Part shown: positions 7,945-8,089 of the stretch, in pieces
Position numbering within the stretch: the first letter of the stretch is position 1
Layout: each line of letters begins with the position of its first letter
From: Dyella amyloliquefaciens
GTDB taxonomy: Bacteria > Pseudomonadota > Gammaproteobacteria > Xanthomonadales > Rhodanobacteraceae
Assembly (NCBI RefSeq): GCF_004296575.1
Contig: NZ_SAYT01000004.1
Span: 1-64,000 of the forward strand
DNA: 64,000 bases
Direction of reading: 5' to 3'
The notes under the pieces: model-generated
The model's database searches: none
What the model was told of the DNA's origin: nothing
The model's input: only the letters and a program-made list of their open reading frames with translations
Made by a program: the position numbers and the translations under genes

Positions 7945-8089
7945 TGCAGGCATCCCTGCCTGCAAGCGCAAGTCAAGAAGCGGCCATCCATGGCCGCGAA
8001 TGGTTAAAGCGATCATCCATGATCGCCAGATTCAAAAAGCAACCATCGATGGTTGCACTTTTAAACAAGAGCGACGCCCAGGCGGCGCT
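7945..8089 (+). repeat. Ladder of five palindromic hairpins (atpG-atpD gap)
   Basis: Five 18-nt palindromes, each two 8-nt arms around 2 central nt, start at 7946, 7980, 8009, 8039 and 8071: GCAGGCATCCCTGCCTGC, GCGGCCATCCATGGCCGC, GCGATCATCCATGATCGC, GCAACCATCGATGGTTGC and GCGACGCCCAGGCGGCGC. Stem bases differ between units but remain complementary; the middle (CATCCATG in two units, CATCGATG and CATCCCTG in others) is nearly fixed in the first four. Linkers of 11-16 nt are A-rich. No terminator U-run is present. Confidence 0.9.

Follow-up and report, generated by a model that had tools for sequence, protein, structure and literature searches.

A two-hairpin palindromic element in operon gaps and genes of Rhodanobacteraceae, probably old and mostly inherited in place

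Introduction

The gap between atpG and atpD of Dyella amyloliquefaciens contains five short palindromes, starting at positions 7946, 7980, 8009, 8039 and 8071 of the 64,000-nucleotide stretch of contig NZ_SAYT01000004.1 analysed here (the window). Their stems differ, while the core stays nearly the same. What are these palindromes, and what keeps their arms complementary? A first-pass annotation had grouped them with similar hairpins near 5234 and 36988 as a family of eleven, each of an 8-2-8 shape, and had speculatively read most of their apices on the strand opposite to the flanking genes as sites for CsrA/RsmA. In CsrA sponges of the RsmX/Y/Z type, one strand presents GGA at the apices of several hairpins. 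The element described below resembles them in having GGA-apex hairpins on one strand; unlike them, it is dispersed through operons and genes, and its GGA strand is non-coding in the window.

Results

Ten of the eleven hairpins form five two-hairpin elements

All five palindromes of the atpG-atpD gap are present at the positions given above. Direct reading of the opposite strand confirmed seven apices of the form CANGGANG (7946, 7980, 8009, 5262, 5325, 36988 and 37018), two of the form ANGGAN (5234 and 5296) and two that do not fit (8039 and 8071). A family of eleven single hairpins is nevertheless ruled out: ten of them are members, arranged as five two-hairpin elements with a common linker, while the hairpin at 8071 lies outside. 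The 8-2-8 shape was not borne out by folding, since as RNA most hairpins have a 7–8-bp stem and a 4-nt loop. The unit, AGTGC-hairpin A-GCGAAGATCAAAAAGC-hairpin B-GCACT, is 54 nt long, occurs five times in the window, has complementary outer ends and is often followed by TYTCAA. With its ends the element measures about 60 bp; both hairpins point in the same direction and are joined by a conserved linker, and no gene is contained in it.

Copies were scored with a covariance model (R1) of 54 positions built from 12 copies, which was used for all genome searches; gene calls came from a codon-usage script. In the atpG-atpD gap, element 1 (7943..8000, plus strand; 42.0 bits, E 2.9e-8) starts on the final base of the atpG stop codon and consists of hairpin A at 7945-7964 and hairpin B at 7980-7997, with a two-hairpin fold of z -3.36. 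Element 2 (8006..8059, plus strand; 66 bits, E 4.2e-14; z -4.62) consists of hairpin A at 8009-8026 and hairpin B at 8039-8056. Two further elements lie head to tail in the atpH-atpA gap, at 5232..5282 (plus strand; 32.3 bits, E 6.8e-6; z -2.97) and at 5294..5345 (plus strand; 34.9 bits, E 1.5e-6); hairpin B of the latter has decayed. The fifth, at 36985..37038 on the minus strand, scores 77.9 bits (E 5.5e-17), a value that, like that of 8006..8059, is not independent of the model because both copies are among its 12 sequences. Eight folds, covering both strands of three window elements and one strand of two, gave z-scores of -2.8 to -4.6 in seven cases, the exception being 5294-5345 with -1.0.

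The remaining hairpin of the atpG-atpD gap (8069..8091, plus strand) also stands in relatives without the element, for example L006, L008, L009, L011, L014, L015 and L018, and is therefore not counted as a member. The hairpin pair with its conserved linker is present in the atpG-atpD gap of 13 of the 36 loci shown. The 23 best matches to the AtpG protein of the window, at 78–85% identity, come from Dyella, Rhodanobacter, Frateuria, Luteibacter and metagenome-assembled genomes.

The element at 36985 lies between two minus-strand genes, one at 37042-37620 without an NCBIfam hit and one at 36310-36945 for a LeuE/RhtB-type efflux protein. Its right end, TCTCAA at 36979..36984 (minus strand), matches the T[CT]TCAA consensus drawn from 88 copies of genome G027. 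Among 18 same-genus loci for this site, five have the element (G000, G001, G004, G008 and G013), 11 are free of it and two offer no anchor; in six of the 11 element-free loci the next gene is the same and follows after a short gap, and in five there is other sequence. Beside this element, the minus strand at 36959-36976 reads AGTGCAGTCATTCACTTG, which may be a degraded left half of a further copy, and a similar stretch follows copies in L377, L378 and L389. Elsewhere in the window, at 38944-38963 and 55063-55082, there are two palindromes whose arms read ATCCC..GGGAT around a 4-nt loop (ATCCCTGCATTCGCAGGGAT and ATCCCCGCCTGCGCGGGGAT) and that possibly represent a second repeat family.

The window has no Rfam match at gathering thresholds. 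The 4.83-Mb genome (17 contigs) has 18 occurrences of the pattern GCCATCCATGGC and 0 of a reversed control pattern, which exceeds chance. The hairpin family is real, and it is larger than the first-pass annotation saw.

Distribution and copy number

The element was found in 36 of 61 relatives' genomes (E <= 0.01). By rank, it is present in all 20 genomes of the genus (own genome included), in 12 of 17 from other genera of the family and in four of 24 from elsewhere in the order, the last four with one weak match each. An order-wide search returned matches in 39 of 250 genomes (E <= 0.001); the 52 same-family genomes listed account for 34 of these. In the class-wide search, a single genome of 274, the own genome, had a match (E <= 1e-4). 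One genus of the same family (g11) had no match in 12 of 12 genomes, in contrast to other genera of the family. Phage and plasmid records had no match to the 60-nt consensus.

The own genome has at least 12 matches (E < 0.001), and copy numbers reach at least 84–86 in G027 (the richest genome), at least 48 in G036 and at least 15 in G012. Copy numbers and absences alike are lower bounds, since only part of the first-look candidates was scored, namely 150 of 6636 in the own genome, 94 per genome in the 61 relatives, 23 in the order search and 21 in the class search. Of the 90 matches in G027, two are reverse readings of other hits and were dropped from the gene-context counts, leaving 88; 22 of the 48 copies of G036 were analysed. 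The cross-genome set consists of the best-scoring hits among those listed for the 61-genome search, with G007 and G008 (9% contaminated) left out.

Adjacent copies are always arranged head to tail. Such tandems account for 86 of 276 copies, and a neighbour in the opposite orientation within 40 nt was seen for none of the 276.

Stems covary at fixed sites

The first-pass annotation had described stems that differ and yet stay complementary. This covariation exceeds shuffles by far, both in one genome and across genomes. The 90 rows of G027 (including the two reverse readings) contain 109 cells changed on both sides of a pair, while shuffles give 28.4 +/- 4.1, and the covariation score is 0.271 compared to at most 0.057 with the partners slid. 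Across genomes, 113 distinct rows contain 138 such cells, compared to 31.3 +/- 4.8 in shuffles. At the atpG-atpD site, 418 of 427 non-apex pairs are Watson-Crick despite differing stems: hairpin A occurs as GATC/GATC, GGTC/GACC, GCTC/GAGC and AGGC/GCCT, and hairpin B as GGCC/GGCC, AACC/GGTT and TGCC/GGCA. At rplT-pheS, one stem mismatch is common to nine of nine species.

In fixed-site samples, which are made up of best-scoring hits, same-site copies from different genomes have an identity of 0.858 (570 pairs). For different-site copies the value is 0.785 when the two come from different genomes (4075 pairs) and 0.787 when they share a genome (278 pairs). Being equally alike within and between genomes, different-site copies point to no within-genome homogenisation. 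Gene conversion is thereby ruled out as the source of covariation, and homogenisation does not explain the paired stem changes.

Could the element nevertheless be a purely selfish relic? Such a relic would be an old palindromic mobile element, now functionless, with its sites held by inheritance or by repeated hits and with covariation arising from subfamilies or from hairpin-driven mutation. Degraded copies in G027 agree with this, while double-sided changes at a fixed site, where copies are not homogenised, argue against it. We compared identities at the atpG-atpD site (33 sources, 528 pairs, duplicates L346 and L420 removed). Identity of the element is flat, at 0.79–0.83 at every divergence, and stays above that of the rest of the gap (mean 0.65). 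In distant pairs it also exceeds that of atpD 4-fold sites (0.81 vs 0.62, 59 pairs); both results count against a relic. The linker, at 0.67–0.76, is no better kept than 4-fold sites, which favours a relic, and in the closest pairs the element (0.83) falls below 4-fold sites (0.92, 15 pairs). The flat identity fits fast turnover within a structural limit and fits equally well a relic subject to hairpin-driven mutation. Non-apex mismatches in sense copies comprise 31 G-U and 40 A-C; the lack of a G-U excess gives no sign of RNA-level selection and likewise suits a relic. Antisense copies have 12 G-U and 35 A-C mismatches, the direction expected for transcript-level selection (Fisher p = 0.05, with rows that are related and so non-independent).

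The same operon gaps are occupied in many genomes, in nearly constant orientation

Clustering of 276 copies by their neighbouring proteins revealed 19 sites occupied in at least two sources, none of them with mixed orientation labels. The largest is atpG-atpD (36 hits, 29 sources, all sense), followed by sucA-sucB (28 hits, 17 sources), where all copies are antisense, so that the GGA strand is the coding one. Sense copies make up atpH-atpA (17 hits, 12 sources), ndk-rlmN (12 hits, 11 sources), rplT-pheS (9 hits, 9 sources) and the 3' side of atpC (8 hits, 7 sources). Hits per site are not all independent, since L013/L346 and L027/L420 are identical in sequence. Further sites are rpsM-rpsK, rpsK-rpsD, fusA-tuf, rpsO-pnp and infB-rbfA (antisense); fusA-tuf is also occupied, with orientation unchanged, in a genome from a different family of the order. 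The own genome has a copy at thrS as well. Representative gene names were checked by NCBIfam or Pfam, and rpsD, atpC, the rRNAs and the remaining labels are sequence readings. Another copy of the own genome (L239 5389-5441, G000:C6) lies between apparent 23S and 5S rRNA genes, in the rRNA sense.

Because site clustering is blind to copies that have been turned round, we also made a check for swapped neighbours. It identified one copy, in the rplT-pheS gap of G027 (L213 6322-6375), with an orientation opposite to that in nine other genomes, which indicates that this gap was hit twice or that the copy was inverted; the finding counts in favour of a relic. Among well-preserved copies, orientation is nearly constant at each orthologous site in many species, and it is mixed over the genome.

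The mixture is apparent from the gene context. Between same-direction genes of G027 there are 39 sense and 26 antisense copies, or 34 and 24 with each cluster taken as one (p = 0.24), a nearly random orientation that speaks for a relic. The other copies among the 88 are divergent (10), convergent (5), inside genes (5) or unassigned (3). The best-scoring cross-genome set (116 copies) comprises 48 sense, 34 antisense, 30 intragenic, two divergent and two unassigned copies. The 22 copies of G036 comprise 12 sense, five antisense, three intragenic and two divergent ones. At the atp loci, 47 of 50 copies are sense, none is antisense, one is convergent and two are unassigned.

Sense copies of the cross-genome set lie close behind the upstream gene, starting a median 2 nt past its stop codon, with a median of 71 nt left to the next start codon (48 copies from only 7 sites). 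No such preference for the upstream stop was found for antisense copies of this set (p = 0.45) or in G027, where copies are no nearer the upstream stop than the next start (p = 0.47 for sense and 0.46 for antisense copies). Intragenic copies are left out of these distances.

Presence at a site is patchy. In the atpG-atpD gap, 16 of 36 tree rows have the element, and at least 12 changes of presence are needed on a tree of AtpG and AtpD, a quick tree in which several AtpD rows are long or badly chosen (L014, L038 and L077). Such patchiness speaks for a relic. Weighing it with the orientations and identities above, we consider a functionless relic rather unlikely.

Orientation and conservation give no support to a CsrA decoy

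If the hairpins were CsrA/RsmA sites, the GGA strand would be transcribed and the two hairpins would bind one CsrA dimer, as a sponge or in cis, for example at sucA-sucB. Several features agree with this: apices match the consensus on one strand, each element has two GGA hairpins spaced by about 30 nt, all 28 hits at sucA-sucB have the GGA strand as the coding one, and csrA is present in eight of eight genomes tested. However, five of these eight csrA-bearing genomes have no match to the element, so CsrA and the element do not track each other. The GGA strand is antisense in the window copies, at the atp and ndk sites and in most intragenic copies. Tabulating strand relative to neighbours, we found the antisense placement noted in the first-pass annotation for all five window elements, but not for the family as a whole: the GGA strand is coding in 26 of the 65 copies in same-direction gaps of G027 and in 34 of 82 best-scoring copies elsewhere. 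This mixture speaks against constant antisense placement of the GGA strand and, to the same degree, against RNA from that strand as the general product. GGA apices are intact at 108 of 120 positions on the coding strand and at 146 of 174 on the non-coding strand (Fisher p = 0.17), a difference that is not significant. GGA hairpins were nowhere seen in a stand-alone array, the copies being scattered through operons and inside genes. We therefore dropped the CsrA decoy, and RsmX/Y/Z-like titration, put forward as speculative by the first-pass annotation, appears very improbable: neither orientation, nor GGA conservation, nor co-occurrence with csrA supports it. CsrA may still bind the sucA-sucB copies, whose GGA strand is coding. 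That annotation had named random orientation, missing covariation and a GGA strand neither transcribed nor bound by CsrA together as evidence against its reading; orientation is indeed mixed genome-wide, yet the pairing covaries.

Intragenic copies are read in a single frame

Among 226 copies we found 42 overlaps with genes of at least 40 nt, of which 32 are sense and 10 antisense. Of the sense overlaps, 30 share one phase, and the other two are shifted within hairpin A but have their linker and hairpin B in the frame of the rest, so all 32 sense intragenic rows read one frame. Among antisense overlaps, nine of 10 share a phase, and most lie at gene ends. In a later draw, five of 21 copies were intragenic and sense, in the same phase as the others. 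The encoded peptide is approximately (I/V)HDREDQKAAIHGRT, which can also be given as (I/V)(H/P)DREDQKAAIHGRTxQ; it had no match in the PDB up to E 10.

The ten hosts are IlvE, LeuD, GcvP, MutS, FdhA, DnaG, ThyA, HrpA, an amidohydrolase and a two-domain carboxyltransferase. Inserts in IlvE and LeuD are near the C-terminus, and those in GcvP, MutS and FdhA stand at the same place in the respective orthologues. The used frame is open in 72 of the 88 G027 copies and a second sense frame in 74, yet the second frame is used by none of the ten host genes (one-sided p = 0.001 if the two frames were equally likely; a weak open reading frame in L196, in the same frame, was left out of the test).

Among 18 genomes of one genus, DnaG has the insert in nine and is without it in the other nine; three of the nine inserts are shortened by the loss of at least hairpin B. 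Structure prediction of DnaG places the insert in a loop between two strands (mean pLDDT 81); confidence in the loop is low (pLDDT < 50 at residues 225-245), and we read it as a predicted disordered loop.

Two host genes are of separate note. The formate dehydrogenase alpha gene (FdhA) in L285 of G004 has, at 1696-1929, four in-frame head-to-tail copies of 60 nt (4 x 20 residues). In L221 of G027, an in-frame copy lies between the CT_C_D and CT_A_B carboxyltransferase domains of one open reading frame (1327-3102), where the element may have joined two genes.

Element ends and candidate mobile sources

The apparent ends of the element recall the cut sites of IS200/IS605-type elements such as IS608, with TCAA at the right end and TTAY at the left. 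The element might accordingly be a miniature IS200/IS605-type or RAYT derivative, with hairpins A and B as its left and right ends, TTAY as the target and TCAA as the right cut. Both end hairpins point in the same direction, which agrees with this. In G027, T[CT]TCAA usually follows the element; TCAA is found within 8 nt in 60 of the 88 copies of this genome and in 136 of 297 overall. TTAY lies near the left end in 14 of the 88 copies, compared to 0–3 in five control windows. Against such a derivation, no element match stands beside any of 15 Y1 transposase loci. Y1 (RAYT-type) transposases occur in nine of 13 genomes tested, but G036 (48 copies) and G012 (15 copies) gave no Y1 hit, while G034 has five Y1 genes and no element match. 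A palindrome scan at the Y1 loci returned two short candidates. The TnpB model PF07282 had no match in five genomes, and we dropped a TnpB-type carrier on that ground. We regard an IS200/IS605-type or RAYT origin as improbable.

Known REP families, as set out in the cited part of one account, form super-families defined by GTAG or CGTC tags, can also lie inside genes, and in many cases have neighbouring units mostly opposite in orientation (PMC3733652). Compared with that description, our element is alike in being a short palindrome of many copies, often between same-direction genes (in cross-genome sense copies near the upstream 3' end) and sometimes inside replication and repair genes. It differs in its two-hairpin unit, in its head-to-tail neighbours, in having sites common to several genera, in that no linked RAYT was found and in having almost no foot tag: GTAG stands at the 5' foot of just four of 297 copies, CGTC of one, and CTAC at the 3' foot of three. 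With the tag almost absent and no element beside the 15 Y1 loci, we rejected a REP/RAYT assignment, and the scarcity of GTAG further disfavours a RAYT derivative.

Rickettsia palindromic elements (RPEs) are palindromes of 100–150 bp in Rickettsia and Wolbachia, some of them inside rickettsial genes at shared loci (PMC3767692). Like them, our element is palindromic DNA that also interrupts housekeeping genes without breaking the frame, and orthologues have it at matching positions; it is set apart by its length (54–60 nt vs 100–150 nt), its two small hairpins and its occurrence in Lysobacterales. It also resembles, as far as the cited parts describe them, the enterobacterial RU elements (PMC2759123) and the PARCEL coding repeats (PMC2996958), which are repeats of a mobile type encoding peptides inside genes. 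RU units are longer, at 103–168 bp, and occur in other hosts (PMC2759123), and PARCEL are amphipathic protein repeats, again of other hosts (PMC2996958). We place the element among dispersed palindromic repeats, as it works like REPs and RPEs and meets the definition of neither. A search of the literature on repeats of Rhodanobacter and Dyella, palindromic elements and the peptide found, among the papers listed, no description of it by title or abstract opening, with subscription journals thinly covered.

Discussion

The observations to be explained are paired hairpins, their covariation, shared sites, a nearly constant orientation at each site and a single intragenic frame. The reading we favour, with moderate confidence, is an old, non-autonomous, REP/RPE-like palindromic element of Rhodanobacteraceae that has mostly been inherited in place and probably serves as a hairpin in the mRNA downstream of stop codons. 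The element would have spread as mobile DNA before the genera of the family split; this mobility is something we infer, because no transposase was found. Afterwards it would have passed on mostly by vertical inheritance, with repeated losses and some gains. Within operons it would be transcribed and fold into two stable hairpins, often right after the upstream stop codon, and by analogy with what has been proposed for REPs these hairpins would most likely protect or insulate the upstream message. As both strands fold, orientation would matter little. Inside genes, the element is probably tolerated as a flexible, hydrophilic loop.

A more ambitious version of this is tentative, and we think it rather doubtful: that an ancient mobile palindrome has been kept by compensatory evolution, across the whole family, as a putative standard two-hairpin RNA module behind stop codons in core operons (atp, suc, fus-tuf, ribosomal protein and rpsO-pnp), while also encoding the in-frame insert HDREDQKAAIHGRT of enzymes for replication, repair and metabolism.

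With this element, the old question of whether REP-like repeats have a regulatory role or are junk can be put to the test, since sister species differ in whether a given operon gap contains it, and natural compensatory variants are available. It also presents in-frame palindrome insertion of the RPE style in a gammaproteobacterial family, in which one of two open frames is used.
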